From Desulfovulcanus ferrireducens (GTDB lineage Bacteria > Desulfobacterota > Desulfovibrionia > Desulfovibrionales > Desulfonatronovibrionaceae), in NCBI RefSeq assembly GCF_018704065.1, contig NZ_JAGUQP010000004.1, forward strand, positions 1 to 64,000: a stretch of 64,000 bases of DNA. The letters run 5' to 3'. This document shows, one piece after another, positions 27,749-45,636 of this stretch. A model generated the notes under the pieces. That model made no database searches. It was given only the letters and a program-made list of their open reading frames with translations, and was not told where the DNA came from. Numbering within the stretch: position 1 is the stretch's first letter; each line of letters starts with the position of its first letter. Both the position numbers and the translations under genes were made by a program.

Positions 27749-28894
27749 TTATTCGCCCAAACCTTTTCTACCAACCTGACGGGCATACGCAAGAGCGACT
27801 GTCCTATAGACCAAGTGAGCAAGTTTAGACCATGGCAAATATGCAATCATCATAAATACAGAGATAAGGTGGAGGTAATAGACAGGGTAAGCCAAACCAG
27901 GCACATTAGCCAAACGTAATATCTCACTTAAAATACCTGTAATTGCAATAGCCCAGATAACACCAATCAAATACCAATCATAATAAGACGTCACAGATTT
28001 TGAAGGATCAGCATTGAGACGCATACGTGTAATTGAAATAAGTCCAACGATCAAAGCTATGGCACCAATGTTGGCTAAAATCTTAACAGGATTCAACAAT
28101 GAAAGCGGCGTGTGCAATTGGTGTCCAATAAGCAGCCCTCCCCAGTGTCCTACAGCCACAACAGAGGTAACAATAAACAAAGCCACAAAACCGTAGAATA
28201 TGTATAGGTGTCCTTTGTACCGCTCTTTATTTGAAGCGCATTCCTGAAACTTTTTATGGGTAACAATTTCTTCTTTAACAACATCAATCAAGGCCTTCCA
28301 AAAACTGGGAGCATCTTCCCCTGGAGTTAAACCCGACTCTTTAAAAGACTTAAACAAATTGCCAACGGCCGAAGCAAAAGTAAAAAAGACAAAAAGAGCT
28401 GCCAGACCAAAAATAGGATCAATAGTATAGTCTCCGGGGAAGACCTTAGCATATTCAATAGTACCTTCGGGAATACTAAGACCAGTTGTGAAGCCCCAGA
28501 TTATAAAGTAAATTAAAGCTGGGATGGCAAAAAGTATGGGCAAATACTTGGAGGAACTCATCCATTTTCCTATTATAGCTGGTTTGGCCAGAGATCTGTA
28601 TGCCATATTTCTCAAGGCCGCCAGTACATCTCCCGGGCTGGCCCCTCTGGGGCAAAGGTCAGAGCATTCCCCACAATTATGACACAGCCAAATATCAATA
28701 TCGTTAACCAGCTTATCCTTAAGTCCCCATTGGGCCCAAATCATTTCCTTACGCGGGAAAGGGCCTTCTTCTGGTGACAAAGGGCAGACCACGCTACATG
28801 TTGCACATTGATAGCATTTTTTGAGGGATTCTCCCCCTGCGGCCTGCAAATCCTTAATAAATTGAACGTCCGGGTCAATTTGTAATCTTGCCAT
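27749..28894 (-). CDS. qmoC: Quinone-interacting membrane-bound oxidoreductase, subunit C
   Basis: QmoC links the quinone pool to the cytoplasmic QmoAB subunits. The 381-residue protein has an N-terminal HdrC-like ferredoxin part with two cysteine sets (Cys27, 30, 33, 37 and Cys71, 74, 77, 81). It continues with about six membrane segments (about residues 120-370) of a haem-b-binding HdrE/NarI-like domain. Histidines in the membrane part are candidate haem ligands. It follows qmoB after 10 bases and ends the operon. Confidence 0.95.
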   Translation of the reverse strand: MARLQIDPDVQFIKDLQAAGGESLKKCYQCATCSVVCPLSPEEGPFPRKEMIWAQWGLKDKLVNDIDIWLCHNCGECSDLCPRGASPGDVLAALRNMAYRSLAKPAIIGKWMSSSKYLPILFAIPALIYFIIWGFTTGLSIPEGTIEYAKVFPGDYTIDPIFGLAALFVFFTFASAVGNLFKSFKESGLTPGEDAPSFWKALIDVVKEEIVTHKKFQECASNKERYKGHLYIFYGFVALFIVTSVVAVGHWGGLLIGHQLHTPLSLLNPVKILANIGAIALIVGLISITRMRLNADPSKSVTSYYDWYLIGVIWAIAITGILSEILRLANVPGLAYPVYYLHLISVFMMIAYLPWSKLAHLVYRTVALAYARQVGRKGLGE

Positions 28895-28904
28895 TTATAT
28901 CCTC

Positions 28905-31208
28905 CTAGAAGCCCTTGAATGGGTTTGGTCCATAACTTTCGACTTCTTCCACAAACTCATCTATAATTTGAGGTATCTTGTCATACTCATCTATGGCCAC
29001 CTGTACCTGTTTCACACGCTCTGGCTCTACCTGCAATTTCTCAAGTGTTTCTGCTATGTTCTCCATTCTTCTGTTACATAGCTCACTACCTTTAACAAAG
29101 TGACACTGATAATCATCTCCAAACTTACAACCCATAAGCAGAACACCATCTAGACCCTTGGACATTGCCTCAGCAACCCACTGAGTGTTTACGGAACCAA
29201 GACAGCGCACAGGAATAAAACGCACGTAAGCAGACCATTTCTTCCCGCGCATGGCAGCCATATCAAGGGCAGGATAGGCATCGTTTTCGCATACAAGTAC
29301 CAAAATCCTGTAGCCGCCTTCTTCCTCGTCATCAGGGACTTCAATTGATTGAATCATATCGTTGACAATAGTTACGCTGTAATTATCGAAGGATATAACT
29401 CTTTCCGGACAGGCGCCCATACAGGTTCCGCAGCGGCGACAACGAGTAGGATTTGGCTTGGGAGTTCCTTTTTCATCATCATCCAATGCGCCAAAAGGAC
29501 ATTCTTCAGTACATCTCTTACACTGAGTACAACGAACAAAGTTAAACTTGGGATAAGACATATCCCCTGAGCGAGGATGGACAGCGACTCCTCTGTTGGC
29601 AGACTCAATACACTGGATAGCTTTTAAGGCTGCTCCCGTAGCATCCTCTTTGGCAGCATTTAAATTCATCGGCTGCCTTACACATCCAGCTGCATAAATG
29701 CCCGTTCTCCTCGTTTCATAAGGAAAGCAAATATAGTTGGAATCAGCAAAGCCGTCAAAAAGCATTAATTCAGGAAATGTTGGGCCCTGCCTGTACTGAA
29801 GTTTCAGACAAGAGGTCTCTACCAGTTTGCCAAAGAGAGGATCGTCTCCTTCTTCCTGACCTTCTTCTTTCTTTTCATCTTCGGATCCACTCTGGCTCTT
29901 CTTTTCCAGGTACTCAAGCTCTAATTTTGCCTCCTCAGCAGTAGTTGGAACCATACCTGTAGCCAAAACAAGCAAATCCACTTTTACTTCCAGGCTTTCA
30001 CCAAGAAGAGTATCTTTAACTCTTATCACGATCTTGCCATCACTGTCTTCAACAATCTCTTCAATCTCAGATTTGGTCAAGAATATACCTGGATCATCCT
30101 GCGCTGCTTTGTAATAGTTCTCGTATACGCCAGGAGTACGCATATCTTTATAAAAAATAAAGGCCTTGGCATTGTCATCCTTTTCGCGCACATACTTGGC
30201 CTGTTTCAGAGATACCATACAGCAAACAGATGAGCAGTAGGGCAGATGTTCTGGATCTCTCTGACCGGCGCATTGAATAAAGGCCACACTCTCCACTTTC
30301 TGACCATCAGAAGGCTTGGTCAGTTTGCCCTCTTTGGCCATCTTTTCAAATTCAACATTAGTAACTACATTTTTAAATTTTCCATAGCCCAGGGGCTCAA
30401 GTTTGCTGGCATCATAAGGCTTCCACCCTGTAGCCAAGACCACGGCTCCAATTTTAAGCTCCTGCTCATCATCGCCAGTTTTGACTTTTGCTTCATAAAG
30501 GCCTGGTGCGCCTGAAATAGACTCAATATTTGCACTGGTTAAAACTTTTATTTTATCGTGATTTTCTACCTGAGCAATAAGCTCATCTATGGTTGGCTCT
30601 TCAGCATCCGTATAAGGATAGTTAGAAGGTAATTGTTTATACAACTGTGCGGCAAAACCACCCAGCTTATCTTCTTTTTCCACCAGCACTACATCATAAC
30701 CAGTATTGGCTGCATTTAAAGCTGCATTAAGACCAGTAAAACCACCTCCAACGACCAAAATAGTCTTGTTAATTTCAGGTATCTCCGGCTCAGGCTTTTC
30801 TATCTTTTCCAGCCTGGACACTGCCATTCTGATGTAGTCCTGAGCCATCATTGTCAGTGGATCAGCATCCAGCTCGGTCTCTTCCAGAGGCGGCAAATCA
30901 GGTTCTTTATAAGACCACACGGCCAGCTCGCGAATATTGGCCCGTTCTACAAAAACATCCGGACCAAAATCAAAGACATCCCACATTATTCTGGGTGAGC
31001 AGGCAGCTACACAAACTGCATTTATGCCCTCTTCCTGAATATCTTTTTGAATTTCTGCCACGCCTTCCTTGCCGCACAAAAAAGGCAAGGTTTTTATCAA
31101 AGCAGGACAAGCTTCATCATCTATATATTCAGTAAGCTGCTCTAGGTTGAGATTCTTACCGATTTCACACCCAGTGCAGATATAAACTCCTATCTTTTTA
31201 TCTGCCAT
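28905..31208 (-). CDS. qmoB: Quinone-interacting membrane-bound oxidoreductase, subunit B
   Basis: This 767-residue cytoplasmic flavin and iron-sulfur protein resembles HdrA with a C-terminal MvhD-like domain. It has a GGGFTGLNAA FAD motif, two ferredoxin clusters (CTQCKRCTEECP and CRRCGTCMGACP), and a C-terminal part with VLVCENDAYPALD and GCKFGDDYQCHF. A charged Glu/Lys-rich insertion lies near residues 435-460. QmoAB passes electrons towards AprBA. It lies 5 bases after qmoA and 10 before qmoC. Confidence 0.95.
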   Translation of the reverse strand: MADKKIGVYICTGCEIGKNLNLEQLTEYIDDEACPALIKTLPFLCGKEGVAEIQKDIQEEGINAVCVAACSPRIMWDVFDFGPDVFVERANIRELAVWSYKEPDLPPLEETELDADPLTMMAQDYIRMAVSRLEKIEKPEPEIPEINKTILVVGGGFTGLNAALNAANTGYDVVLVEKEDKLGGFAAQLYKQLPSNYPYTDAEEPTIDELIAQVENHDKIKVLTSANIESISGAPGLYEAKVKTGDDEQELKIGAVVLATGWKPYDASKLEPLGYGKFKNVVTNVEFEKMAKEGKLTKPSDGQKVESVAFIQCAGQRDPEHLPYCSSVCCMVSLKQAKYVREKDDNAKAFIFYKDMRTPGVYENYYKAAQDDPGIFLTKSEIEEIVEDSDGKIVIRVKDTLLGESLEVKVDLLVLATGMVPTTAEEAKLELEYLEKKSQSGSEDEKKEEGQEEGDDPLFGKLVETSCLKLQYRQGPTFPELMLFDGFADSNYICFPYETRRTGIYAAGCVRQPMNLNAAKEDATGAALKAIQCIESANRGVAVHPRSGDMSYPKFNFVRCTQCKRCTEECPFGALDDDEKGTPKPNPTRCRRCGTCMGACPERVISFDNYSVTIVNDMIQSIEVPDDEEEGGYRILVLVCENDAYPALDMAAMRGKKWSAYVRFIPVRCLGSVNTQWVAEAMSKGLDGVLLMGCKFGDDYQCHFVKGSELCNRRMENIAETLEKLQVEPERVKQVQVAIDEYDKIPQIIDEFVEEVESYGPNPFKGF

Positions 31209-31213
31209 TAGTC

Positions 31214-32464
31214 TTACCTCCTCACCAAAGTTTGAATAGCTTTTAAGGCCGCACCAGTGGCAGTTTCAGCGGATGTCACAACATCCAATGGCATTTTAGC
31301 GCAACCAGCGGCAAAAATACCATTTTCATCCCCGCCAATGATGAACCCTTGATCATCTTTAGTCACGTCTATGGACAGCCCCTCAACTGCAATGGAGGGT
31401 TGCATTCCCGTTGCCAATACTACCATATCGTATTTCTCTTCTTGTTTCAGCCCTGCCAAAATATCTTCAGCCGTAACGATAACATCTCCGCTTGCATCTT
31501 CTTCTAATTTCGCCACCTTACCTTTAACCATTTTAATTTTATCGTCTTCTTGTATCTTCTTTAAAAACTTTTCATAGCGGCCTGGAGCTCTGAGGTCGAT
31601 ATAATAGATAACAATTTCTGCATCTGGGTATTGTTCTCGAATGTATGTACATTGTTTTAAGGAGGCCATGCAACAAATATATGAACAATAATTGAGGTGG
31701 TTCTGATCCCTTGATCCTGCACATTGTACAAAGGCTATCCTCTGAGGTTCCTTTCCATCAGATGGCCTTAAAATCTTTCCCTGTGTAGGGCCGTTAGGGG
31801 CGGCCAGTCGCTCCATCTGCATATTGGTAATGGCATTTTTAATTTGGCCGGCACCCAAATTATCAAGCTTGGTCACATCGTATGGTACCCAGCCAGTGGC
31901 GCAGATAATTGACCCTACATTTAGGGTAATTTCTTTTTCCTTCTCTTCAAGATCAATGGCATTATACTCACAAGCACTGACACATTTGGCACAAGAGCTT
32001 CCGGTGCAAACTTTATCGTCAATTACATAACGCATGGGCATGGACATCATGTGCGGCCTATAAATAGCCTTGCTCTTGCCAAGACCAAGATCAAAGTCAC
32101 AATCTCTTTCAACAGGACAGGCTTCCACGCATTTATCGCAAGCTGTGCAATTATTGTTCACATACCTGGGTTTGAGCTTAATGGTAACTTCAAAGTCTCC
32201 GGGCTGACCTTTGATTGAAGTCACCTCAGCTAAAGTAAAAAATTTGACCTTGGGATTTTTCTTGATCCTTTGAAAGTTAATCTCGAGCCCACAAGTGGGA
32301 GGACACAATTTTGGAAAATAGTGCTTTAATTGTGCAACTCTTCCCCCAAGATACGGTTGTTTTTCAACAATAAATACCTCGTAACCTACTTCTGCAGCCT
32401 CAAGCGCGGCTGTAATCCCACTAAAGCCGCCACCTATAACAAGTATACTGCTACTATTAGACAT
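31214..32464 (-). CDS. qmoA: Quinone-interacting membrane-bound oxidoreductase, subunit A
   Basis: The 416-residue protein is an HdrA-like flavoprotein with the FAD motif GGGFSG (10-15), the segment PYLGGRVAQLKHYFPKLCPP, and cysteine motifs CTACDKCVEACP and CAKCVSACEYNAI for iron-sulfur clusters. It is thought to contact the APS reductase AprBA. The gene lies 174 bases downstream of aprA, beyond a hairpin, and is followed closely by qmoB and qmoC. Confidence 0.95.
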   Translation of the reverse strand: MSNSSSILVIGGGFSGITAALEAAEVGYEVFIVEKQPYLGGRVAQLKHYFPKLCPPTCGLEINFQRIKKNPKVKFFTLAEVTSIKGQPGDFEVTIKLKPRYVNNNCTACDKCVEACPVERDCDFDLGLGKSKAIYRPHMMSMPMRYVIDDKVCTGSSCAKCVSACEYNAIDLEEKEKEITLNVGSIICATGWVPYDVTKLDNLGAGQIKNAITNMQMERLAAPNGPTQGKILRPSDGKEPQRIAFVQCAGSRDQNHLNYCSYICCMASLKQCTYIREQYPDAEIVIYYIDLRAPGRYEKFLKKIQEDDKIKMVKGKVAKLEEDASGDVIVTAEDILAGLKQEEKYDMVVLATGMQPSIAVEGLSIDVTKDDQGFIIGGDENGIFAAGCAKMPLDVVTSAETATGAALKAIQTLVRR

Positions 32465-32601
32465 GTTAATCCTCCCTATTTATTGCCTAAATATTAGGTA
32501 CAAAATGGCCTTAGCCCAAACTCCTTTGTTTAGCAGTAATTTTTCATACCTTACCCACTAAAAAAAATAAAGCTCAGGCTTAGACCATTTATAATAAAAA
32601 T

Positions 32602-32626
32602 GGCTGCGGGCCTATGGCCCGCAGCC
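32602..32626 (-). terminator. Hairpin between aprA and qmoA
   Basis: GGCTGCGGGCC (32602-32612) and GGCCCGCAGCC (32616-32626) form a perfect 11-bp stem with a 3-nt loop, 13 bases past the aprA stop. The transcript side continues ATTTTTATTATAA. It likely limits, rather than blocks, readthrough from aprBA into qmoABC. Confidence 0.8.
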
Positions 32627-32638
32627 TGTAATGTAACC

Positions 32639-34639
32639 TTACGGATGCATTGGATCAGGAATAATCTGAATATATGGTTTCTTAAAGAACTTGGTCTCGC
32701 CTGTCTCAGGATTGAATTGTGAGTTAGTGAAACATTTCCATTCTTCATCATTGAGTTCGAGGTAGTCAGTGCGATAGTAGAAGCCAGGATACCTTGTTTC
32801 CTTACGGAACTTAATATGCAGTACGTGCAAGCGAACAGTCCATAAGCGATGGTAGTTTTCCCAAGCCCTGAGCAGTTCGTGCAAGTCACGAGCGCAGAGT
32901 TTGGCAGAATCTTCCTCAAGCATATCTAATAATTTTTCACAATGCTCAAGCAAGGTCTGAGAAGTGTTATAGTAAGTTGCAACACCACCACCGTACTCGT
33001 CAGTGGCCTTGATGAGACGCATCATGAAGTTACGTGGAGTAATATATTTGGGGTTAATATCAGGAGCAGTGGTGATGTCCTTGTTCTCTTGATAGGTGTA
33101 CCAAGGTTTGTAAACCATCTTGGCCAACTCTTCAGGGGATTCCTTCAAGGTTGGCTTGAAGTCCTTATGGTCAACAACCCAGCGAACCATTTGCTTACCA
33201 ACTATACGACCTTCAGCATGAGAACCAGAAGAGAACTTATGCCCGGAAGCACCAACACCGTCAGCACAGGTGAACAGACCGTTAACTGTTGTCATGCGGT
33301 TGTAAACCTTGCCGTTATCAGCTTTGATCTTGTACTCTTCAGGTACCCAGTCTTCGTCTGGACCAGAAACCCAGATACCGCAGCAACCGGAATGTGAACC
33401 CAGGAGATAAGGCTCTGTAGGCATGATTTCGGAACCAACCTTTTCAGGCTCGATGTTCATACATGCCCACAAGTTGGCTTGACCAACACACATGTCAAGG
33501 AAGTCTTCCCAAGCTTCAGCTTCAAGATGCTTCTGCTCTTTCTTGCTGAGTTCTTTGAAGGTAGTCTGCAGAGCAGTGGCAGTATCCATGAAGATAGGTC
33601 CGCGACCTTCTTTCATTTCCTTGAGCATCATGTGGTTACGCAAACAGGTAGGAATAATCTGACCTTTAGCATAACCTTTTTCTTCATAGGACTTGAGCAT
33701 GTCGCGGTTGGTTACGCAGTAGTCTTCGCCCTTGGCATTGGTAGCTTTAGCTTTGAAGAGCAAGAACCATGCACCAACAGGACCGTAACCATCTTTAAAA
33801 CGAGCAGGTACGAACCTGTTTTCCATCATTGTCATTTCGGCGCCAACCTGAGCACACATGGTATATGTAGAACCAGCGTTCCAAACAGGATACCATGCAC
33901 GACCCATACCTTCACCGGTTGACCTTGGGCGGTAAACATTAACTGCACCACCGCAGGCACACAGCAAGGCATTGCAACGGAAGACATAAACTTTATTTTC
34001 GCGAGTAGAGAAACCAACAGCACCTGCGATACGATTAGGCTCGTTGGCGTCCAGGAGAAGTTTAACAACAAAAATACGCTCCATGTAGTTTTCTTCACCA
34101 AGAGCGTTCTTAGCAGCTTCAGCAACGATGCACTTGTAAGACTCACCATTGATCATGATCTGCCAGCGTCCAGAGCGTACTGGCTTAGCCCCATTGCGAA
34201 CCTGGAGACCTTTTTTCTTGGCCTGAGCACCATCCAAACGTTTGCCGTCCTCGGTTTGTACCCACAATGGCAGACCCCATTCCTCGAAAAGATGAACAGA
34301 ATCATCAACGTGACGGCCAAGATCGAAAATCAAGTCTTCACGAACCAGGCCCATCAGGTCTGTACGGACCATGCGTACATAATCATCAGGATCATTTTCA
34401 CCAAGATAAGTATTAATAGCAGAAAGCCCTTGAGCAACAGCACCAGAACGCTCCAAGGAAGCCTTATCGACCAAGAGAATCTTAACACCATACTTGTCTG
34501 CCCATCTCTTGGCCTCAAAGGCAGCACCACAGGCGCCCATACCACCACCGACAATCAAGATATCGGTATCCATTTCTACTATTTCGGGTTCAGCCAAAGG
34601 CAACCCTAAAGGCTCAGCCTTAGCAGGAATACGGGGCAT
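32639..34639 (-). CDS. aprA: Adenylylsulfate (APS) reductase, alpha subunit
   Basis: AprA is the FAD-containing catalytic subunit that reduces APS to sulfite and AMP in dissimilatory sulfate reduction. The 666-residue protein has the dinucleotide-binding motif GGGMGACGAAFEAKRWA (about 31-47) and the conserved segments GHKFSSGSHAEGRI and PYLLGSHSGCCGIWVSG of the fumarate-reductase-related fold. Length is normal. Codon use looks strongly biased, as expected of a very abundant enzyme. It follows aprB after 51 bases. Confidence 0.97.
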   Translation of the reverse strand: MPRIPAKAEPLGLPLAEPEIVEMDTDILIVGGGMGACGAAFEAKRWADKYGVKILLVDKASLERSGAVAQGLSAINTYLGENDPDDYVRMVRTDLMGLVREDLIFDLGRHVDDSVHLFEEWGLPLWVQTEDGKRLDGAQAKKKGLQVRNGAKPVRSGRWQIMINGESYKCIVAEAAKNALGEENYMERIFVVKLLLDANEPNRIAGAVGFSTRENKVYVFRCNALLCACGGAVNVYRPRSTGEGMGRAWYPVWNAGSTYTMCAQVGAEMTMMENRFVPARFKDGYGPVGAWFLLFKAKATNAKGEDYCVTNRDMLKSYEEKGYAKGQIIPTCLRNHMMLKEMKEGRGPIFMDTATALQTTFKELSKKEQKHLEAEAWEDFLDMCVGQANLWACMNIEPEKVGSEIMPTEPYLLGSHSGCCGIWVSGPDEDWVPEEYKIKADNGKVYNRMTTVNGLFTCADGVGASGHKFSSGSHAEGRIVGKQMVRWVVDHKDFKPTLKESPEELAKMVYKPWYTYQENKDITTAPDINPKYITPRNFMMRLIKATDEYGGGVATYYNTSQTLLEHCEKLLDMLEEDSAKLCARDLHELLRAWENYHRLWTVRLHVLHIKFRKETRYPGFYYRTDYLELNDEEWKCFTNSQFNPETGETKFFKKPYIQIIPDPMHP

Positions 34640-34690
34640 AATATCCTCCTTAAATTTTGTTTTTACAGTTAATGCTTAGAACTACCTATT

Positions 34691-35182
34691 TTATTGTTTG
34701 GTAGGATCAACCCAGGTTTCTACAAGGTCAGGATTTTTCACTTCAAACTTTTTACCCAATACTTCCTTAGGTGTCTTTAATTCAGTCTCAGTGAACAGCA
34801 GTTCATTCTCCAGGTCACCTGGTTCTGGCTTGCCTTCATAAGGCTTGATTGAACCTTCATCAGTAGTCCTGATGGGGAATTTGAAGCGTTTGATGTTGCC
34901 ATTGCGGAACTGAATGGTCCACATAATATCTGAAGCACTACGCATAGGAATACTGGTTCCGCCCATAGGTGCGAAGTCAGCATAAGGACGAGCCTCAATA
35001 GCGCCCTGAGGACAAATCTTTACACAAGAATAACATTCCCAGCATGCATCTGGCTCCTGGTTGTAAGCCTTCATTTCCTCAGGATCGAGGATCATCAGGT
35101 CGTTAGGGCAGATGTACATACATGCAGTCTTTTCTCCACCCTTACAGCCGTCACACTTGGCTGGATTAACAAAGGTTGGCAT
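34691..35182 (-). CDS. aprB: Adenylylsulfate (APS) reductase, beta subunit
   Basis: AprB carries electrons to the flavin of AprA through two [4Fe-4S] clusters. In this 163-residue protein the ligands are Cys10, 13, 21, 25 and Cys47, 50, 53, 57, with the eight-residue spacing of the first set typical of AprB. The C-terminal third wraps around AprA in known structures. It has its own candidate promoter upstream (35300-35329) and a good AGGAGG site. Confidence 0.97.
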   Translation of the reverse strand: MPTFVNPAKCDGCKGGEKTACMYICPNDLMILDPEEMKAYNQEPDACWECYSCVKICPQGAIEARPYADFAPMGGTSIPMRSASDIMWTIQFRNGNIKRFKFPIRTTDEGSIKPYEGKPEPGDLENELLFTETELKTPKEVLGKKFEVKNPDLVETWVDPTKQ

Positions 35183-35299
35183 AATGTTCCTCCTAAATTA
35201 ATAAGGTTTTTAGATTAACTAAACCACAAACCAAGCCACTTAAATACTAAAAACGGCAAAGGGGACTCCCTTGCTCATCAAAATAGCTTGCTTGTGAAA

Positions 35300-35329
35300 A
35301 CATTAACAAGATGCTCTTTCGCTTGTCAA
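35300..35329 (-). promoter_or_regulatory. Candidate promoter of aprBA
   Basis: On the minus strand a perfect TTGACA (35324-35329) is followed after 18 bases by TAATGT (35300-35305). It lies about 120 bases before the aprB start, in the 215-base gap after sat. Confidence 0.4.
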
Positions 35330-35397
35330 GGAGAAAGTGAATTTTATCTCAAAACAAACTCGGGCCAAAAGAGTAAGCTCTTGGCCGCCAAAAAAAA

Positions 35398-36693
35398 CTA
35401 CATTGCGTCGCCAGAGGCTGCTTTCTGCATTTTAATCTCAACCTTCTCTGTCAGATTTTCATAGTATTCACGCAAGATAGCCAGAACTTCTTCACGACCA
35501 AAGTGATCAGGAATAGGCTGACCTTCTGAAAGTGCCTTCCGTAACTTGGTACCACTCAGGATAACACGGTCTTCCTTGCTGTGTGGACAGGTTCTAAGAG
35601 AAGCCATGCCATCACACTTGTAACAGTAGAAGGTCCAGTCAATTTTTAAGGGCTGACAAATTAGGGCCTTGCCAGGCTCAGGACAGGATTCATCAGCGTA
35701 TGGGATGCGATCAAAAATTTCTTGAGCTTCAAACAAACCGTAAAAATCGCCAACACCAGCATGGTCTCGACCAATGATCATGTGAGAAACACCGTAATTC
35801 TGGCGGAATGTAGCATGCAACAGTGCTTCCCGAGGACCAGCATAACGCATATCCAGAGGATAACCGCCCTGGACGACATTTTCTTTTACAAAGTAGTGCT
35901 CAATCAATGTGTCAATACATTTAACACGGACTTCAGCAGGAATATCACCAGGCTTTAAGCTACCAATCAAGGAATGGATAAATACACCGTCAAGAACCTC
36001 AATAGCGATCTTGGCCAAAAATTCATGAGATCTGTGCATTGGGTTCCTGAGTTGCAATGCACCGACGGTTTTCCATCCGCGTTTTTCAAATTCAGCTCTG
36101 GCCTCGGCAGGCCGCATGTAAATGCCTTTATACTTGGTTGGGAACTCGCCCTCGCTGAGTACCTTCACAGGGCCGGCAAGGCAGACTTCCTTCTCGGCCA
36201 TAACCATTTTCACACCAGGATGATCTTCTAAAGCTACTTTCCAGAATTTATCATCTGCACTATCTTCACCTTGTCCCTTGTAAACTAGCTCACATTCCCA
36301 CTTTTTGTCTTCTTCTGTCTTTTCCCACTTTTCGGTAACCTTCATTGTGGCCATGATTTCATCGCCTTTTGGATCGTACAGGGCAATTTCATCACCTTCC
36401 TTAATCTCCGCAGCATCTTCTTTGGTCACGGACATAGTTACAGGGACAGGCCAAAATGTACCATCGGCTAAAAGAAAATTTTCGCAAACTCCTTTCCAGT
36501 CGGCCCTGGTCATAAAACCATCCAGAGGACTAAAGCCACCAGTACCAATCATAATTAAGTCGCCTCTTTCACGACTGGTGATAGGAACCTGCTTTAAACC
36601 CTGAGCCTTTTTCAATTCTTCTTCTCTCTCGGCTCCTTCAAGCAAACGAATTACCAAGCCTTTTCCACCATGAGGGGGAACGAGTTTTGACAT
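35398..36693 (-). CDS. sat: Sulfate adenylyltransferase (ATP sulfurylase)
   Basis: Sat activates sulfate with ATP to APS, the first step of sulfate respiration. The 431-residue protein has the active-site motifs [11 protein letters not shown] (214-224) and GRDHAGVG (308-315). A cysteine cluster (Cys357, 360 and 369, then His371) fits the metal site known from this enzyme in sulfate reducers. It lies upstream of aprBA and qmoABC, all in the same direction, so substrate activation and reduction are encoded in order. It is preceded by an AAGGAGG site. Confidence 0.97.
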
Positions 36694-36758
36694 AACAAAA
36701 CCTCCTTAATTTTTAATTTCTAAGCTTTAACACCTTTACGGCTTGTGAATTTGTGAAC

Positions 36759-36787
36759 TTGATACAGTCATTGCTCAAAACTTTCAA
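36759..36787 (-). promoter_or_regulatory. Candidate promoter of sat
   Basis: On the minus strand TTGAAA (36782-36787) and TATCAA (36759-36764) are spaced by 17 bases, about 65 bases before the sat start codon. The hexamers are only fair matches to the sigma-70 consensus. Confidence 0.35.
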
Positions 36788-37303
36788 GCCCCCAAGACCA
36801 ACTTTTGTGATTTTTTTATCAAAAATTTTACACCAAACACGATGCCACCCCCTCTCCTCAAAAGACGAAATGAAACTGGATGCTTTAACATTTTGATTTT
36901 ACAATAATTTTTCTAAAAAAATCCTCCTCCCAAAAAATGAGTAGCTTTTATTTGATGCAAGTTAGTCCAAGGGAATTCTATTTTTAATGTAGCAGAGACT
37001 TTATTCACTTTAGTGTCAACTTTTTTATAAAAATCTCCAACCAATCCCCCTACACAAATGTGAAATTTGGCACATTTACCCTAACACACACCACTGTGAG
37101 TTCAACTTTAATTGTGACTAATTTAACAATACACTTATACCATTATTCTCAGTCTAAGGCAACACGATCGAAACAAATTAACAAACACCCTGATTCAACC
37201 ATTAATTTCATACTTCATAAAAAAAAATTTCCCTACAAAATAAACACCTCTTAGTATTTAACAATTTTGTTTATATGGTGTTATAAGATTCTATTTTAAA
37301 TAC

Positions 37304-37333
37304 ACTATAACCCATATACAACTTTAGTGTCAA
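37304..37333 (-). promoter_or_regulatory. Candidate distal promoter upstream of sat
   Basis: A perfect TTGACA (37328-37333) and TATAGT (37304-37309) are 18 bases apart on the minus strand, with an AT tract upstream that could act as an UP element. The -35 and UP part are copied at 37014-37032. Transcription would run about 600 bases to sat. Confidence 0.4.
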
Positions 37334-37785
37334 TATTTTTATAAAATTTAAACGAGATTCTTTTTATACAAGGGATTTGTAGTACATTTATCTAATTGGT
37401 TTTACTTTTGGAATAACTCTTTTTGATAAAAGACAATGAAGTGAAGAAAAAATATAGATATCTTGTACAATCAATATAAACATTTGCTTTCTTCTTATCT
37501 TAAAATTTATTGGATTAGTTTTGAAGGAAGAAAATATTAAGGTAAGTCTTTGAGCTTCTCGTCAAAGAGTAGATATGGCTAGATATTACTAGCCAGGAAC
37601 AAAAAGGGCTGGAAGACTATCATATGCAGGAGTGATAAATCACCGGAGAAAAGACTCTATATTTCTTAGACGAAACAAAATCTTTTCTTCAGCAAATAGG
37701 GAAAAGACTAGGGCTGTTCCTGGCAGTTTTAAGATAAAATCTTTATGAATACAGGGACTTAATTTAATAATAGGGCTAATGTACT

Positions 37786-37982
37786 CTAAACCCCGCTCGT
37801 CCTAATTTCTAAATATTTCTTTTGGATATAACCTTCTTTGAAATGTTTAAGTACCAAATCAAATAAACGCTTCTGCCCCACAATTTCTATCTGTCTCAAA
37901 TGGGCCGAAAAGTAGTCCGGTCGGTGGAAATATTGTTCTAACGGTCTAATTTATTAAACAAATCCTTATAAATCAGGCACAT
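37786..37982 (-). pseudogene. Frameshifted remnant of an unidentified protein
   Basis: On the minus strand a start-like ATG (37982) opens a frame with CLIYKDLFNKLDR. It then needs a +1 shift to continue as EQYFHRPDYFSAHLRQIEIV, a further 30 residues of protein-like sequence, and a stop at 37786. The composition is that of a real, soluble protein end. On the plus strand at about 37570-37740 other broken frames occur (for example LYFLDETKSFLQQIGKRLGL). I do not recognise the families. Confidence 0.35.
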
Positions 37983-38128
37983 AATAGCTCTTGTTAATTG
38001 GAGGTTTTTAAAATTTTTTGATAACATTGCGTTTTAGGGGCAAAATTTATTCTAATGAAAATAAATTAGACACTAGTTGTAAGTTTACGAAGATTTTGAT
38101 TTATAACTCGTTAAGGACCTTAATTCAG

Positions 38129-38560
38129 TTACCAACCTTTTTCCATAAGTATTTCTTTCAGTTTCTCTGTATTCTTTTTTTCAATCAAAAGCATTTTTTT
38201 GGACTTGGCTTCCTTGATTTTCTCCATCAACTCTTTAATATCTGCAGGTTTTTCGATAAAGTCTAAAGCCCCCAGCTTCATGGCCTCAATCCCGCTTTTC
38301 ACAGTGGCATGCCCGGTTAAAAGGATAATTTGCAGTTCAGGATTAGTAGCTTTGATGCTTTTCAATGTTTCCAAGCCGTCCATATCTGGCATAAGCATAT
38401 CCAGAATTACGGCATCATAGCTCTCCTGCCCGATCTTCTCCAATGCCTCTTTACCTGAAGTAGCCGTGGCTACCTCTAGCCCCCTATTTTTCATCCTCTC
38501 TGATAAAGCTGATAAAAATTCCTGTTCGTCATCAACTAATAAAACTTTTTCATGGCTCAT
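38129..38560 (-). CDS. Single-domain response regulator
   Basis: The 143-residue protein is a receiver domain with DDE near residues 10-12, the phosphoacceptor Asp in VILDMLMPDMDG (about 54), Thr in LLTGHA and Lys in FIEKPAD. A Lys-rich C-terminal tail of about 20 residues follows, with no output domain. It is the last gene of the row that starts with the TetR gene at 45486 and lies 11 bases after a histidine-kinase-like gene. It probably shuttles phosphate or acts by protein contact. Confidence 0.93.
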   Translation of the reverse strand: MSHEKVLLVDDEQEFLSALSERMKNRGLEVATATSGKEALEKIGQESYDAVILDMLMPDMDGLETLKSIKATNPELQIILLTGHATVKSGIEAMKLGALDFIEKPADIKELMEKIKEAKSKKMLLIEKKNTEKLKEILMEKGW

Positions 38561-38571
38561 AACTAAATCTC

Positions 38572-39195
38572 CTAGCTAATTTTATTAATTGAAATTTTAG
38601 TTTGTTGCTCAACTGAAATATGCGCTTCTATGGTCGAGGCCAAGACTTTTAAAAACTCATTTACTTCCACAGGCTCAGAAATAATTACTGTTGGCTGTTT
38701 TTTTTGTTTAACACAACTTAAAGAGATTTGTAACCCCTTTCCCCTGCCTTCCATAATTTGATCAATACAAGAGAATATAAGGTCCATAAGTATAAAAGGC
38801 TGGGTCGAAACATTAACCGGCTCTAAGTTTGAAGCTATAAGCTGAAAGCCTTTAACCGCGGCCATACGCTGAGCCAAATCAACAACCAAAGTAACTATTT
38901 CTCTCAAATCAACCTGGACCCAGGTTTCATCTACAGAATGAGCAAATTTGTTCAATCGCCGGGCAATGGTATTTGCCCGCTCAACCTGACGGGCAATTGA
39001 AGCTACAATACCTTTTATCCTCTCTATATCTAAATGCTGCCCTTGCTGTGCAAGATAAAGAAAATCCTCAAGCAATCCATTTTGCTCATTTATGATAGCC
39101 AAACAGTTTTTTATCTCATGGGAGATACTAGCGCCGACCCGACCAAAAAACTTTAGTCCCTGCCCCTCTAGAATTGACCAATTAATTTCATCCAT
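38572..39195 (-). CDS. Histidine-kinase-like protein with H box but degenerate ATPase part
   Basis: This 207-residue protein has a clear dimerisation/phosphoacceptor motif, ASISHEIKNCLAIINEQNGL (22-41), nearly the same as in the membrane kinase at 39606-41318. The following half lacks the N, G1 and G2 ATP-binding boxes of HATPase domains; DLIFSCIDQIMEGRG stands where the N box would be. It may be a histidine phosphotransfer protein derived from a kinase, placed between two stand-alone receivers (23 and 11 base gaps). No membrane segment is present. Confidence 0.75.
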   Translation of the reverse strand: MDEINWSILEGQGLKFFGRVGASISHEIKNCLAIINEQNGLLEDFLYLAQQGQHLDIERIKGIVASIARQVERANTIARRLNKFAHSVDETWVQVDLREIVTLVVDLAQRMAAVKGFQLIASNLEPVNVSTQPFILMDLIFSCIDQIMEGRGKGLQISLSCVKQKKQPTVIISEPVEVNEFLKVLASTIEAHISVEQQTKISINKIS

Positions 39196-39218
39196 AACAA
39201 CCTCAGATTCAAAAAATT

Positions 39219-39587
39219 CTATTCTTCGACAATTTCTTTCAATTTAGAAATAAACTCATCAAGCTGCACCGGCTTAACTAAGTAAAAACAGGCTCCCTTG
39301 GAACAACCTTTTTTAAACGCATCTTCCGAACCATGACCGGTCAAAAAACTGAATTTCATCTCTGGCTTAATCTTTTTAATCATTTCCATAAGATCAAATC
39401 CGCCTACCTTGGGCATTTTTACATCTAGCACTGCCAGATCGTAATCATTCTCCCGAACTAGCTTGAGAGCATCCTGTGCATTTGTAGCCCAATCTGCTTC
39501 TATCCCCCTAAAAGATAGTCTTTCGGCCAGGGTTGAAACTAGATCCTTTTCATCATCTACTAGTAAAATACGCAAAACTTTAACCAC
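39219..39587 (-). CDS. Single-domain response regulator
   Basis: The 122-residue protein is a bare receiver domain: DDE at 11-13, phosphoacceptor Asp in LAVLDVKMPKVGG (about 55), Thr in FLTGHGSE and Lys in YLVKPVQ. It lies 18 bases after the membrane kinase gene and 23 before the kinase-like gene. Two stand-alone receivers in one gene row suggest a multi-step phosphorelay. Confidence 0.93.
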   Translation of the reverse strand: MVKVLRILLVDDEKDLVSTLAERLSFRGIEADWATNAQDALKLVRENDYDLAVLDVKMPKVGGFDLMEMIKKIKPEMKFSFLTGHGSEDAFKKGCSKGACFYLVKPVQLDEFISKLKEIVEE

Positions 39588-39605
39588 CCCCTAAGCATTA
39601 AAATC

Positions 39606-41318
39606 CTAAGCTCGACCAACAGGCAGGATTATGGTGAATTTACTCCCTTTGCCCACCTGACTTTGTACCTCAATTTCTCCGCCAAGCTTTTTGACTAACC
39701 CATAAGTTATAGACAGGCCAAGGCCTGTCCCTCCTTTCTTTTTCTTGGTGGAAAAAAATGGTTCGAAGATCCTCTTTAAATTTTCCGGCGGAATACCACA
39801 ACCATCATCAGCTATCGAAATACGCACCCTGTTTTCATCCAATTTCTTCATTTCAATCTGAATGTGTCCACCATCGTCCACAGCTGCGAAGGCATTGTTA
39901 ATGATATTCAAAAAAATCTGTTGAAGTTGGCCCCGATCACTTATTATGGTTGGAAAATCTTCATCTACCTGGACATCAATCTGAATATCCCGATACTCTG
40001 CCTCTTTTTCCAAAAAACCCAATACCTCATGAACAAGCTTAGGTAAATCTATTTCTTCTTTCTGAACATCAATATGCCTGGCAAAACCTAGTAAGCGATG
40101 GGTAATAGTTCTGCATCTATCTACCTGAGCGATAATAGAATCGACTAATTTTAATAACCTTTCATCTTGGGCATATTTATCAGTATATGTAAATAAATCT
40201 TTAATAAGACCTGCCCGTTCATTTATAATGGCCAGTGGATTATTTATCTCATGGGCCACACCTGCGGCCAAACGCCCAATGGACGCCATCTTATTGGCAT
40301 GTTCAGCATTGTGCAAGGTAGCCAGCCTGTTCATGTCGGCTATATAAATACGACTGATAAGCATTGTTGCCGCTCCCAAAATAACCACAAGAATAATAAC
40401 AATGCTTGATATCAAAAGAGCCAACATCTCTCTTTTTAACTTCCACCAGCTTTGCAAGAGGACAATAGGCTTTTGAACAAGCACTAAAATGAAAGGTGAG
40501 TGGGCAATATATGCACATCCCACGATGAATTTCTGACCGCTATTATCCTGAACTTCACAAATTTCAGTTCGCTCGGGACAATCAGGTAGAGGCAGCTCTA
40601 TTTTTGAAAGCACATCACCATAATATCTCGAACTGGTTTGTAATATCCCTTGATGATTGATAATGAAAGCATCACTCTCAGGACGCAAATCTATAGAAGA
40701 AACTAGTTTGGCAAACCGTTCTGTGTCAATGGTAGCCCTCAAGACAAAAAAGTCACCATCAGGCAAAAGATGTTTTACCGCTATGACAAAGTGGGGAATA
40801 TGTCGAAATCCTTTGAATACGTCGCTGATATAAATACCACGAACAATAACTTCTTTAAACCAATCCTGCTCTTTATAATTGCGCCCTTTAAGCTCATAAG
40901 GCCCAACATATGACTTCTGAGTTCCGTTTGAATCTATTATACCCAGGTCCACAAAGCCACCAAACGTTTCTTTTAAGTCCAAAAAAATTCTGGCCAGTCG
41001 ATCCTGATTTTTTAATTCACTAAAGTCATTGTTCCGAACAATAAAAGTTAAGGCAGACGTTCTTTCTTCCAAAAAATAAGTCAGGCTTCGTCGTGTATTG
41101 GAAACAAGTCGCACCAGGGGGTAGGTTACCTCGGCCCTCATTCCTTTTTCATAAAGGTTTAAATTCATGAAGGTCATTATCAAGAGGGGCAGAATAGACA
41201 CCCCGGCGATACTCACCACCACTATCAGCCACATGCGGCGATAGTTAAACAGTGTCTTACCTACCCCATCCTGGTCGGTAGCATCCCAAAAGACTGGCCT
41301 AAATAAGTCCCAGAACAT
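39606..41318 (-). CDS. Membrane histidine kinase with extracytoplasmic Cache-like domain
   Basis: The 570-residue protein has a membrane segment near 30-50, a periplasmic double-Cache-like sensor (about 55-300), a second membrane segment near 310-335, an H box ([15 protein letters not shown]) and a full ATPase domain with [21 protein letters not shown] and GGTGLGLSI. Cache domains usually bind small organic or inorganic ligands. The gene lies 45 bases behind the kinase-like/receiver fusion in the sulfate permease row, so an anion or sulfur-related signal is possible but unproven. Confidence 0.93.
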
Positions 41319-41363
41319 TTACTTGTCACCACGAAAACTAGCCGGCTGCATACCAACTACGCC

Positions 41364-42575
41364 CTATGCCTTGCGCTCCTTAATCTTTGCATACGCTTTC
41401 TTCATTGTTTCGGTTAAAAGTTCTATATCCACTGGCTTTTGTAAATATGCAAAAGCACCCAGTTCCATACAAGTCTGGCGATCCTTTTCTGAACCGTGCC
41501 CAGTAAGAATAATAACTTCAATATTGGGATGAGTCTTTTTAATCCGCCTTAAGACCTCTATACCATTTATGCCGGGCATCTTCAAATCAAGAACAATAAC
41601 CTCTGGTTCTTCAGATTGTACAAATTTCAAAGCCTGTTCACCGTCATAAACAACAGCGGACCCCATATCACGCATAAGCAAACGCTCAGACAATGTCTGG
41701 ACAAATTCACGCTCATCATCAACCAAAAGAACCTTGGATGGCCTCTCAAAATCAAATTTCCTGTAAATATCTGTCTGGTAAAAATTTGGCCCTATCTTGG
41801 TCTTGACATCTTTAACCCCGGGAAGCTTTGAAACAATATCCTTGAGTTCCTGCTCCAGCTTGGAAAGCATGATCACATTTTTTTCTATGGTCAGGATCAC
41901 CACGCCATCTTCAGCATCCACAGTAACATTATGTCCCTCAGAGGCCAAAGCCACCTCTACCTGGGCTGCCAGTCTGAAATCTTGAATTGCTTTTATAGAT
42001 TTATCTGTAGGCTTAAGAATATCTTTCTGCACATACTCGGTAACTATCTGCACAGCTTCATCAATTGTTTTTTTATCTGTGGGCAAGACTATATCATATA
42101 GAGAAGAATGCCATGGGTCTTTATCAAATAGATGCTCGGACCAATTAATACACCCTTCATCAAAATCATTGATCTCCTTTATAGCTTCCTTTTCAGACAA
42201 CCCATTATTCATGGCCTGCTGAATACGATATTTCTTATCAGCAATAAGACAGACCTTGAGCACATGAGTAACTTTACTCGGAACAAGAAGACCGGCCCAA
42301 CCAAAATATAACCTATTATCAACCTCTAAGTATTCAGCCAGAATAGATTTCAAAAAGGCAACGCATCTTTCCTTTTCATGGGTAAATTTGTTAAATACCG
42401 ATGGCTTGCAAAAAACCGCTCGACGGATCTTGTCAACGGGCATATCAAACTTCTTGCTTGCAGCCTGAAACAGTGCGTTATCGTCTATTATTTCATATTC
42501 TAACTTTTGGGCAATTTTATCTGCTATAGTTTCCGCATGCACAAAGTTGCCGTAGGTTATGCTTATAGATGACAT
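41364..42575 (-). CDS. Cytidylate kinase-like / BON-like / receiver fusion protein
   Basis: The 403-residue protein has three parts. Residues 1-185 resemble the cytidylate-kinase-like family, with the pattern ADKIAQKLEYEIIDDNALF, but the GxxGxGK loop is absent (ITYGNFVHAETI), so catalysis is doubtful. Residues about 195-265 resemble a BON domain (VDAEDGVVILTIEKNV then LPGVKDVKTKI). Residues about 280-400 are a receiver with phosphoacceptor Asp in VIVLDLKMPGINGI and Lys in YLQKPVD. It sits between the SulP permease and the membrane kinase. The role is unknown; control of the permease is an inference. Confidence 0.82.
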   Translation of the reverse strand: MSSISITYGNFVHAETIADKIAQKLEYEIIDDNALFQAASKKFDMPVDKIRRAVFCKPSVFNKFTHEKERCVAFLKSILAEYLEVDNRLYFGWAGLLVPSKVTHVLKVCLIADKKYRIQQAMNNGLSEKEAIKEINDFDEGCINWSEHLFDKDPWHSSLYDIVLPTDKKTIDEAVQIVTEYVQKDILKPTDKSIKAIQDFRLAAQVEVALASEGHNVTVDAEDGVVILTIEKNVIMLSKLEQELKDIVSKLPGVKDVKTKIGPNFYQTDIYRKFDFERPSKVLLVDDEREFVQTLSERLLMRDMGSAVVYDGEQALKFVQSEEPEVIVLDLKMPGINGIEVLRRIKKTHPNIEVIILTGHGSEKDRQTCMELGAFAYLQKPVDIELLTETMKKAYAKIKERKA

Positions 42576-42612
42576 GCTGAACTCCTTTTTAGAGTTTATT
42601 GAGTTAAAGCTA

Positions 42613-42668
42613 GGTGTGGATGCAAAGACTATAATCGTGCCTCATTACGGCGCATCTGCATCCACACC
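42613..42668 (-). promoter_or_regulatory. Perfect 12-bp hairpin between sulP and the receiver fusion
   Basis: GGTGTGGATGCA (42613-42624) and TGCATCCACACC (42657-42668) pair perfectly across a 32-base loop. It starts 26 bases past the sulP stop on the minus strand. There is no T tract, so RNA processing, stabilisation or attenuation is more likely than simple termination. Confidence 0.5.
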
Positions 42669-42693
42669 ATTCTACTCCAATTAGTCAGATCTC

Positions 42694-44829
42694 TTATTTA
42701 GGCACATAAGATAAAAGCGGGCATTCGTAAATACTTGCACCAGTTCTATCTGTATGTGTTTTATAGTAAATATCTTCAATAGCGTCTTCCAGATGACCAT
42801 AGATATTTTCTTCACCGATCTTTTCCCATAAATGCGTACGCTTCATGACCGCAATAACATTTTCTTTCAACTCAGCAAAGGAAATACCGCATCCTGCACT
42901 ACGCACTCTATCTACCAGCAGGGATAGAGCTTCCTCGCCAGAGGCATCCATGTCATTGATCCCATCGGCTACAATTAGAATATGCTTTAGCTCAGGCCTT
43001 GTTTGCATAAGTTCCGTAACCTTGTCTTCCAGATAGCTGGCATTGGCAAAGAATAACGGCCCGTCAAAACGAATTGCAGCCACATGTCCGCATTCTTTTA
43101 AATTATAAGCCTCGGCATTTTTTAAAGCCAGGTCTTCATGCATGGCCAGTCTGGCCACTGTAGGACGCATGCTCTTATACAAGAATACAATCAGCGAGAG
43201 GACAACTCCGACCATGATTCCTTTATCCAGATGCGGAGCAAATGCCAACGTGCAGATAAAGGAAATAATGGAGATTGCGCCATCATACCATTGAGCCTTC
43301 CAGGCATGGATAAATCCGGACACGTTAATCAAGCCGATAACAGCCATCATAATTACCGCGGCAAGTACTGCCTGGGGCAAATGATAGAGGAGAGGTGTGA
43401 AAAAGAGCAGACAGATAATAACTGCCAAACTGGTAAATACGCTGGAAAGCCCGGTTACTGCTCCAGCCTGCAAGTTTACAGCCGAGCGGGAAAAAGAGCC
43501 TGAAATCGGATAACTTTTACCAATAGAACCTACAATATTGGCTAAACCCTGACCAATCAATTCCTGATTCGGGTCAAGCCTTTGTCCTGTTTTTGCGGCC
43601 ATTGCCTTGGCAATGGAAATGGCTTCCATAAAACCCAGGAGAGAAATGATGGCAGCATAAGGTAACAATTTTAAAATAATAGACAAATTGAAGTCGGGCA
43701 TGCTTAAAGTTGGCAGGCCAGCTGGAATCTTGCCTACTACAGCACCACCGCCCATCATAAGCAACTTATCTGTCTGCAGGACCTTATTTTTAACCTTGAG
43801 CCGCCATACACGACCATCGGTTTCCACGCCAGACGGCACATTATCTTTGGGCCAGAAGGACATGCCAGACTCAGTTTCTACACCGGCAAACTTCATAGCC
43901 CTTAGTCTACTCCGGTAATTATGTGCCAACTCTTTGAGACGATTCATTCTCACTTCAATTACTTGCAAATCATGCTTGATATCTATAGCCGCGATGGAAT
44001 TTTTACCATACTCTTTAATTACTTTATCCAACTCATTACTCAAGTTTGCCCTTTTTTCACCAAGGTCAGCAATGGCCATTATGGTCTGATTAAACTTGGC
44101 GATATTTTCCTTAGCTTCTTGACTGTGAATCTCATTAAGATTGGCAACATAGTTATGTTCAAATCCGGTCAACCAGGAAATCAAAGTAGTAACCACCACA
44201 GCTACCAATACATTGGGAATACGCGGATTAATTTTTTTAAGGCCATACATAATGGCAAAAGCAAGTGCCCCCATAAAAAGCGTAGGCCAATGTGTATAAT
44301 CAAAAGCAGCCAGAATCACGCGCCAAATAGTCTCATAATGATGGGCAGCCTTATCCACATACACGCCAAACAATTTGGACAGTTGCGAAGAGGCAATAAT
44401 AATGGCAGCTGCATTGGTAAAACCATTAACCACAGGGTGAGACAAAAAGTTAACCACCAGGCCCAAACGCAGCACGCCCAGCATAAACTGGAAAATACCC
44501 ACGGTAAAAGCAAGGATAATAGCATAAGCAATAAATGCCTCGCTTCCGGCCGTAGCCAACGGCTCAAGTGAGGCCGCAGTCATCAAAGAAACAACGGCCA
44601 CTGGCCCAGTCGCCAACTGCCGGCTGGAACCAAACAATGCTGCAACCATAGGTGGCAAAAAAGAGGCATAAAGCCCATAATAAGCAGGTAAACCAGCAAG
44701 TTGTGCATATGCCATTGATTGCGGAATCAAAACCAGCGCCACAGTCAACCCGGCCACAGCATCAAGCCTGAACTTGGCCAGATTGTAATCTTTAAACCAG
44801 GCAAGAAATGGAAAAATTTTCGCTAACAT
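42694..44829 (-). CDS. SulP family anion permease with large insertion and STAS domain
   Basis: The 711-residue membrane protein begins with the SulP pattern PQSMAYAQLAGLPAYYGLYA (36-55) and ends with a STAS domain (about 585-685, with VADGINDMDASGEEAL). Between the membrane segment ending near 222 and GAVVGKIPAGLPTLSMP (362-378) lies an extra stretch of about 135 residues, charged and helical (EKRANLSNELDKVIKEYGK), probably a coiled coil, where typical SulP proteins have only a short loop. Family members carry sulfate, bicarbonate or other anions; the setting favours sulfate. Confidence 0.9.
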   Translation of the reverse strand: MLAKIFPFLAWFKDYNLAKFRLDAVAGLTVALVLIPQSMAYAQLAGLPAYYGLYASFLPPMVAALFGSSRQLATGPVAVVSLMTAASLEPLATAGSEAFIAYAIILAFTVGIFQFMLGVLRLGLVVNFLSHPVVNGFTNAAAIIIASSQLSKLFGVYVDKAAHHYETIWRVILAAFDYTHWPTLFMGALAFAIMYGLKKINPRIPNVLVAVVVTTLISWLTGFEHNYVANLNEIHSQEAKENIAKFNQTIMAIADLGEKRANLSNELDKVIKEYGKNSIAAIDIKHDLQVIEVRMNRLKELAHNYRSRLRAMKFAGVETESGMSFWPKDNVPSGVETDGRVWRLKVKNKVLQTDKLLMMGGGAVVGKIPAGLPTLSMPDFNLSIILKLLPYAAIISLLGFMEAISIAKAMAAKTGQRLDPNQELIGQGLANIVGSIGKSYPISGSFSRSAVNLQAGAVTGLSSVFTSLAVIICLLFFTPLLYHLPQAVLAAVIMMAVIGLINVSGFIHAWKAQWYDGAISIISFICTLAFAPHLDKGIMVGVVLSLIVFLYKSMRPTVARLAMHEDLALKNAEAYNLKECGHVAAIRFDGPLFFANASYLEDKVTELMQTRPELKHILIVADGINDMDASGEEALSLLVDRVRSAGCGISFAELKENVIAVMKRTHLWEKIGEENIYGHLEDAIEDIYYKTHTDRTGASIYECPLLSYVPK

Positions 44830-44847
44830 ATACCCCCCGTTTACTAT

Positions 44848-45486
44848 TTATTGTCCCGCCAATGCAGGACTTGATTCTTCACCGACGTTATAATTCTTTA
44901 AAATTCTTCGACACGTTTTTAAGACATCATTATAAAGTGAATCCACCGGAAAAATATGAGCAAGATCGAAACGAATAAGGCCATTTAGCATGGCCAGAAT
45001 GATCAAAGCTGTCTTGGTTGGCAAAATATCCTTTGAGATAGAACCATCTTTCTGCCCCAGAACAATCCCCTCAACCAAAGCGGTCAGAAAACAATTGTAA
45101 ATACTCTCTAAACTCTTACGACAGGCTGAATTTTCAACAGCCAGCTCATAAGAATGACTGCGGTAAAGCAAAGCCAACTCACTCCGCAATCCTTCTGTCA
45201 TATAAAAATAAACCTTGACCACCTCCTCCACCATCTCCAGCCCTGAAGAAAACTCTCGACCATGAACATTTTCGTCAACATTATGAATGATTCTTCCCTG
45301 AGCTCTTTTCAGGACCTCCAAAAACAAACCTTCCTTGCTTTTAAAATGATGAAAAATAGTCCCTTCGGCAGCCCCTGCGGCTTTGGCAATTTCTGATATT
45401 GCCGTATAACGAAAGCCCTTTTGGGCAAATAAACGAGTAGCCGCGTCCATAATCTTTGTTTTTAAGGAAACAGCTTGTCCTTGCAT
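44848..45486 (-). CDS. TetR/AcrR family transcriptional regulator
   Basis: The 212-residue protein has the N-terminal helix-turn-helix of the family, FRYTAISEIAKAAGAAEGTI followed by FHHFKSKEGLF (21-51), and a helical ligand-binding C-terminal part. It is the first gene of the row, 18 bases before sulP. Palindromes in its own upstream region (45511-45557), which also precedes the divergent methyltransferase gene, are likely operators. The ligand is unknown. Confidence 0.93.
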   Translation of the reverse strand: MQGQAVSLKTKIMDAATRLFAQKGFRYTAISEIAKAAGAAEGTIFHHFKSKEGLFLEVLKRAQGRIIHNVDENVHGREFSSGLEMVEEVVKVYFYMTEGLRSELALLYRSHSYELAVENSACRKSLESIYNCFLTALVEGIVLGQKDGSISKDILPTKTALIILAMLNGLIRFDLAHIFPVDSLYNDVLKTCRRILKNYNVGEESSPALAGQ

Positions 45487-45510: not shown

Positions 45511-45557
45511 ACTGAGTGAGCGCTCAGTCGGGAAAAACTAAGTGAAAAGTTTCACTT
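45511..45557. promoter_or_regulatory. Candidate TetR operators between divergent genes
   Basis: Two dyads lie side by side: ACTGAGTGAGCGCTCAGT (45511-45528), with the perfect core TGAGCGCTCA, and AAGTGAAAAGTTTCACTT (45540-45557), a perfect 8-2-8 palindrome. They occupy the 150-base gap between the TetR gene and the methyltransferase gene. The first resembles operators described for several TetR regulators. Confidence 0.6.
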
Positions 45558-45636
45558 TGTCAATAAAGAACCACTGGAAAGTTTTTACAGAAAAGATTAG
45601 GAGAGCAGTAAAAGTTACGTGTAGGTCAAAAAAGCA

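Follow-up and report, generated by a model that had tools for sequence, protein, structure and literature searches.

A fused protein of 403 aa, which combines a kinase-like domain lacking its phosphate-binding loop, a BON domain and a receiver domain, is a conserved member of the signalling cassettes that accompany SulP, DASS and TauE transporters. This is the main context added here to the earlier note on its gene. We refer to the fused kinase-like/BON/receiver protein as KBR. Judged from sequence and gene context, we are somewhat inclined to regard KBR as a phosphorylation-switched, non-DNA-binding output or adaptor of a cassette controlling sulfate import in sulfate reducers. The window, i.e., the whole stretch of DNA analysed, covers 64,000 nucleotides of the Desulfovulcanus ferrireducens genome; coordinates are collected in Table 1.

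Table 1. The KBR cassette of the window, the domains of KBR (res, residues) and the neighbouring sat gene
Feature	Position	Strand	Basis
Candidate operator: imperfect inverted repeat preceding TetR	45537..45560		
TetR-family regulator, first cassette gene	44848..45486	-	
SulP transporter; STAS domain; conserved insertion of ~125 aa at res ~233-358	42694..44829	-	
KBR (403 aa: Cytidylate_kin2-like, BON, linker, receiver)	41364..42575	-	ORF, Pfam, AlphaFold2, profile comparison
KBR kinase-like domain, res 1-182; beta1-alpha1 loop GNFVHAETI replaces P-loop	42030..42575	-	
KBR BON domain, res 191-261, alpha-beta-beta-alpha-beta	41793..42005	-	model, profile comparison
KBR linker, between BON and receiver	res 262-279		
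KBR receiver domain, res 280-403 (D286, D287, D330, T358, K380)	41367..41738	-	Pfam, fold, alignment
HK1: two TM, dCache sensor, HisKA, complete HATPase	39606..41318	-	
REC2: single-domain receiver, 122 aa, GTG start	39219..39587	-	
HK2: DHp-like phosphotransferase candidate, 207 aa, H-box SISHEIKN, without ATPase motifs	38572..39195	-	
REC3: single-domain receiver, 143 aa	38129..38560	-	
sat (ATP sulfurylase), neighbour 1435 bp downstream of the cassette	35398..36693	-	

Domain architecture of KBR

The KBR reading frame starts with ATG, is preceded by a good ribosome binding site (AAGGAGTT) and lies within a tight series of genes on the same strand. The earlier note had read its product as a cytidylate-kinase-like part without a P-loop, a BON domain and an intact receiver; Pfam, profile-profile comparison and AlphaFold2 show this reading to be correct. 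The AlphaFold2 model (62 sequences) has a mean pLDDT of 93.4 and a pTM of 0.85. Full-length relatives of KBR number at least 80 when one genome is taken per species, nearly all of them from sulfate-reducing Desulfobacterota. A chance fusion peculiar to one genome is ruled out by these 80 relatives.

The N-terminal domain matches PF13189 (Cytidylate_kin2) over residues 12-168 with E=3.8e-19 and 70.0 bits, the Pfam gathering score being 28 bits, and the same family was found in all 62 KBR relatives scanned. The match begins at position 10 of the profile and so lacks the P-loop end. Because searching structures with the full-length model yielded receivers only, the N-terminal part was folded (pLDDT 93.0) and searched alone. 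Its best solved matches are two PF13189 structures, 3hdt (Z 20.1, rmsd 2.0, 163 residues) and 3fdi (Z 19.5, rmsd 1.9, 158 residues), followed by CMP kinases at Z about 13. No different fold was thus found for the first 185 residues.

The beta1-alpha1 junction of 55 fused relatives mostly reads ITIFSGxFC, while the window KBR has SITYGNFVHAETI. Neither the Walker A motif GxxxxGK[ST] nor the GSGG/GAGG loop of the family is present in any of the 55. The two solved PF13189 members have the loops YGSGGR and FGSGGH, a GSGG or GAGG loop is frequent in the shorter PF13189 relatives of the phylum, and stand-alone kinase-like/BON proteins, which possess a C-terminal extension of ~100 aa, carry G(S/T)YS(K/R/H)GKE. 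The Walker-A lysine is missing from all PF13189 proteins inspected (3hdt, 3fdi and 30 relatives), so the loss in the fused proteins goes beyond an already unusual loop.

Two accounts of this loop were discarded. A sequencing or start-site artefact is ruled out by its being common to the 55 fused relatives, and an ancestral family of normal P-loop kinases is unsupported, given that 3hdt, 3fdi and the 30 relatives lack the Walker lysine. The former P-loop contains Cys12 in 50 of the 55 fused proteins (loci L055-L134); in the window KBR and its nearest sampled relative this residue is Val, so a redox or sulfide sensing role of Cys12 was dropped as not essential.

Elsewhere in the kinase region R117 is kept in all sequences, and G92, D139, W145, Y160 and D161 in nearly all. 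This constraint suggests that a binding function has been retained and argues against decay. We consider the domain a probable pseudoenzyme serving as a binding domain for a nucleotide, APS or a protein partner. The nucleotide- or ligand-sensing role put forward in the earlier note is a mere possibility, and the domain has lost the classic residues for binding phosphate. It is very improbable that the domain remains an enzyme performing receiver-switched nucleotide phosphotransfer via a non-canonical loop. The intact kinase-like fold and the six conserved residues would be in line with catalysis; however, GxxGxGK[ST] and GSGG/GAGG occur in no fused member, their place being taken by GxFC (GNFVHA in the window), and another residue takes the place of the Arg of V/I/L-G-R, a motif found in 3hdt and about 9 shorter relatives.

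The middle domain is a more distant family member. In the whole KBR protein the BON match covers residues 199-229 with 15.1 bits (E=0.028), and the isolated middle segment of the window KBR reaches 21.3 bits (E=3.4e-4), both scores being under the Pfam gathering score of 27 bits. BON was nevertheless the sole Pfam family to recur when the segment was isolated (15 of 22 relatives). Profile-profile comparison of the KBR segment (22 relatives) with canonical BON domains, taken from related genomes, gave E=9.9e-7 and a probability of 91.2%, while 30 column-shuffled BON decoys did not exceed 3.3%. Together with the alpha-beta-beta-alpha-beta order, this makes the BON fold detectable. A structure search with the kinase-like part and BON unsplit was filled by kinase-like proteins, with no BON structure among the matches listed.

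The C-terminal domain matches Response_reg (PF00072; residues 282-390, E=9e-29) and aligns with the fold of known receivers at Z >20. All 55 fused relatives have D286, D287, D330 and K380 unchanged; position 358 is occupied by Thr in 51 of them and by Ser in 4. A Pfam search for Trans_reg_C produced no match in KBR, REC2 or REC3. The proposal that KBR is an adaptor controlled by phosphorylation, also made in the earlier note, fits with the receiver residues kept in 55/55 relatives, the histidine kinase gene directly downstream of KBR and the lack of a DNA-binding or known enzymatic output.

The cassette in the window and in other genomes

The cassette of the window lies on one strand in the 5' to 3' order TetR, SulP, KBR, HK1, REC2, HK2, REC3 with gaps of 11-118 bp. 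It adjoins the sat-aprBA-qmoABC genes of sulfate reduction, being located upstream of them on the same strand (window 27749-45486). The 80 scanned loci L055-L134 show no such adjacency; qmoBC precedes SulP only in genome G230 (locus L156).

Across the 80 named genomes, SulP is directly upstream of KBR in 65 of 68 judgeable loci and HK1 is downstream of it in 61 of 68. HK2, REC2 and TetR accompany KBR in 51, 45 and 42 of 55 judgeable loci, respectively; REC3 was left out of the tally since its slot can be filled by the receiver of KBR itself. To offset the choice of the 80 genomes by similarity, we also examined 35 loci taken from an evenly drawn sample of the phylum. The 32 judgeable ones contain SulP (24), TauE/SafE (3), DASS/CitMHS (4) or none of these transporters (1). 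Paralogous KBR cassettes exist in which an unrelated anion transporter, DASS/CitMHS or TauE, is found in place of SulP.

The SulP proteins linked to KBR have a feature of their own. Their ~125-aa insertion splits the PF00916 match (15 genomes tested), whereas two SulPs of the same genomes that are not linked to KBR have an unbroken PF00916 match and no insertion. In the usual 7+7 topology of these transporters the TM7-TM8 loop faces the periplasm, so the insertion is probably periplasmic. As the sensor domain of HK1 is located on the same side, one may guess that the two contact each other.

Several neighbourhoods depart from this arrangement. At L166 (6958-8286) neither an anion transporter nor a histidine kinase was recognised near KBR, and the region encodes an ABC transporter and a PhnD-like binding protein. 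A PEP-utilising PPDK-like protein of ~870 aa and a Pfam-less protein of ~243 aa recur with TauE transporters and KBR cassettes (L041, L043, L046, L162, L164). The genome of the window has a second transporter-signalling cassette, without KBR (L260, 4699-12410, G000:C22), which comprises a dCache-like histidine kinase, three single-domain receivers, a TauE-type transporter, a 234-aa protein and an 869-aa PPDK_N/PEP-utiliser-like protein.

Stand-alone kinase-like/BON genes were kept out of the main evidence, as their neighbourhoods are mixed and only some include DASS. At L054 such a gene is located between a DASS gene and genes for a histidine kinase and an NtrC-type response regulator, and at L245 and L248 it adjoins DASS. 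At L137/L216 (G184:C1 ~2056317-2061319) the complete cassette with SulP and KBR is followed by a gene of like orientation for a stand-alone protein with the loop G(S)YSRGKE.

Distribution among sulfate reducers and the transported anion

In the phylum sample of 297 genomes, KBR is present in 34 of 144 dsrA-positive and 1 of 153 dsrA-negative genomes (Fisher p=5e-11; the test ignores phylogeny, and the p value is inflated by shared ancestry). The sole dsrA-negative genome with KBR is a fragmented one, and the matches are spread over 17 families of the sample. KBR occurs in only about a quarter of the sampled dsrA-positive genomes and is absent from many sulfate reducers; in one entire family of the order to which the window belongs, no sampled genome has it.

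SulP proteins can transport other anions, such as bicarbonate and dicarboxylates, and the assignment of sulfate to the cassette accordingly rests on context. The cassette might serve another anion, e.g., bicarbonate or a carboxylate, in which case ecology or phylogeny might explain why it is associated with sulfate reducers. The SulP and TauE families do vary in substrate, and the Fisher test leaves room for shared ancestry. We consider this quite unlikely, though, because one signalling module is common to three transporter families that are not homologous and have links to sulfate or sulfite, KBR matches come from as many as 17 sampled families, and the window cassette abuts sat-apr-qmo, with qmoBC placed before SulP in G230 as well.

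Relay components and control of the cassette

All ATPase boxes are kept in HK1 (71 sequences). HK2 has kept the histidine box (HEIKN), but the N, G1, F and G2 boxes are absent from it (57 sequences). In the Spo0 scheme of Bacillus, a histidine kinase acts through Spo0F and Spo0B on Spo0A. By gene content, HK1, the single-domain receivers and HK2 constitute the parts list of a putative Spo0F/Spo0B-like relay, and KBR is probably its non-catalytic output.

The receiver proteins encoded downstream of KBR in 67 SulP loci are all 109-169 aa long (75 of 75). This is too short for a winged-helix output, so the cassette is without a DNA-binding response regulator. A paper of 2025 describes SulP and DASS clusters of Desulfobacteraceae that contain two-component genes; according to its main text, the SulP clusters are abundantly and constitutively expressed, sulfate uptake is their proposed role, and their control is proposed to be transcriptional and PhoRB-like, exerted by 'WalR-type' regulators plus TetR (PMC11887813). 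The window cassette has the content of these clusters: SulP, TetR, a cache histidine kinase and receivers. The same text reports a palindromic operator in front of sulP clusters, and in the window an inverted repeat precedes TetR.

A purely transcriptional scheme, in which promoters are the target of HK1 and the receivers, either directly or by way of TetR, KBR being an intermediate and gene expression the output, is a minority possibility that deserves attention. It would account for TetR being present in 42 of 55 loci, for the inverted repeat and for the sigma-54 activators of some related DASS clusters, and it agrees with the PhoRB-like model as given in the main text of PMC11887813. Two points argue against it: the receiver proteins of the SulP cassettes have no room for a DNA-binding domain, and the other domains of KBR are kinase-like and BON, not HTH. 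With respect to the regulators of homologous SulP clusters, the domain data disagree with the 'WalR type' of that text, and receiver proteins without a DNA-binding domain suggest that the PhoRB-like model of the SulP cluster is due for a rethink. The TetR gene in the cassette means that transcriptional control also exists. Constitutive formation of SulP, as stated in the main text of PMC11887813, leaves room for control at the protein level and does not by itself prove it.

Under our preferred reading of KBR as a non-DNA-binding output or adaptor, the periplasmic dCache domain of HK1 would sense an external cue, sulfate being the likeliest one, and HK1 would then phosphorylate a receiver. Phosphate could pass in a Spo0F/Spo0B-like manner from HK1 via REC2 and HK2 to KBR and/or REC3. 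Phosphorylation of D330 may alter the contacts of the kinase-like/BON module, which would then act by contacting other proteins, the transporter or its regulators being the likeliest targets. As a result, sulfate uptake would be matched to demand.

In a bolder variant, KBR would be a pseudo-nucleotide-kinase under receiver control. It would read an adenylate inside the cell (APS, AMP or ATP) and, once phosphorylated by the outside-sensing relay, directly gate importers of sulfate belonging to three unrelated families. We regard this as improbable; if true, KBR would be a protein-level valve on the most energy-critical substrate of sulfate reducers.

A long-standing question, whose physiology is covered in PMC5840216, is by what means sulfate reducers alternate between high- and low-affinity uptake without accumulating too much sulfate. 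KBR offers a concrete and widespread single-gene target within the SulP, DASS and TauE transporter cassettes of these bacteria and adds a likely pseudoenzyme together with BON to receiver outputs.

Comparison with known systems

SulP and DASS clusters were already known; within them KBR is a response regulator with an unusual output. Its domain architecture was not found in the open-access literature searched, and the main text of PMC11887813 mentions neither cytidylate-kinase-like nor BON domains. BON joined to CBS-CBS or other partners has been known before: the 12 main BON architecture clusters in PMC7806268 include CBS-CBS-BON and do not include the combination seen in KBR.

As far as the main text of PMC11887813 goes, the clusters described there share SulP, a TetR repressor, two-component genes and a cache-domain histidine kinase with the window cassette. 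The regulators are presented there as 'WalR-type', whereas the homologous window cassette has KBR, single-domain receivers and an ATPase-less DHp protein.

Compared with the Cytidylate_kin2 structures 3hdt and 3fdi, the N-terminal domain of KBR belongs to the same fold and sequence family, but it is fused to BON and a receiver and its loop is reduced to GxFC/GNFVHA. With the BON proteins OsmY, DolP and Kbp (PF04972), the KBR segment has in common the order of secondary structure elements and profile similarity; it differs in being very divergent, present as one copy, cytoplasmic and placed between a kinase-like domain and a receiver.

The Spo0F/Spo0B likeness consists of a histidine kinase, a single-domain receiver, a DHp phosphotransferase without a working ATPase and a receiver-bearing output protein. 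Unlike Spo0A with its DNA-binding domain, KBR, as the end point of a putative relay, would deliver its output through kinase-like and BON domains.
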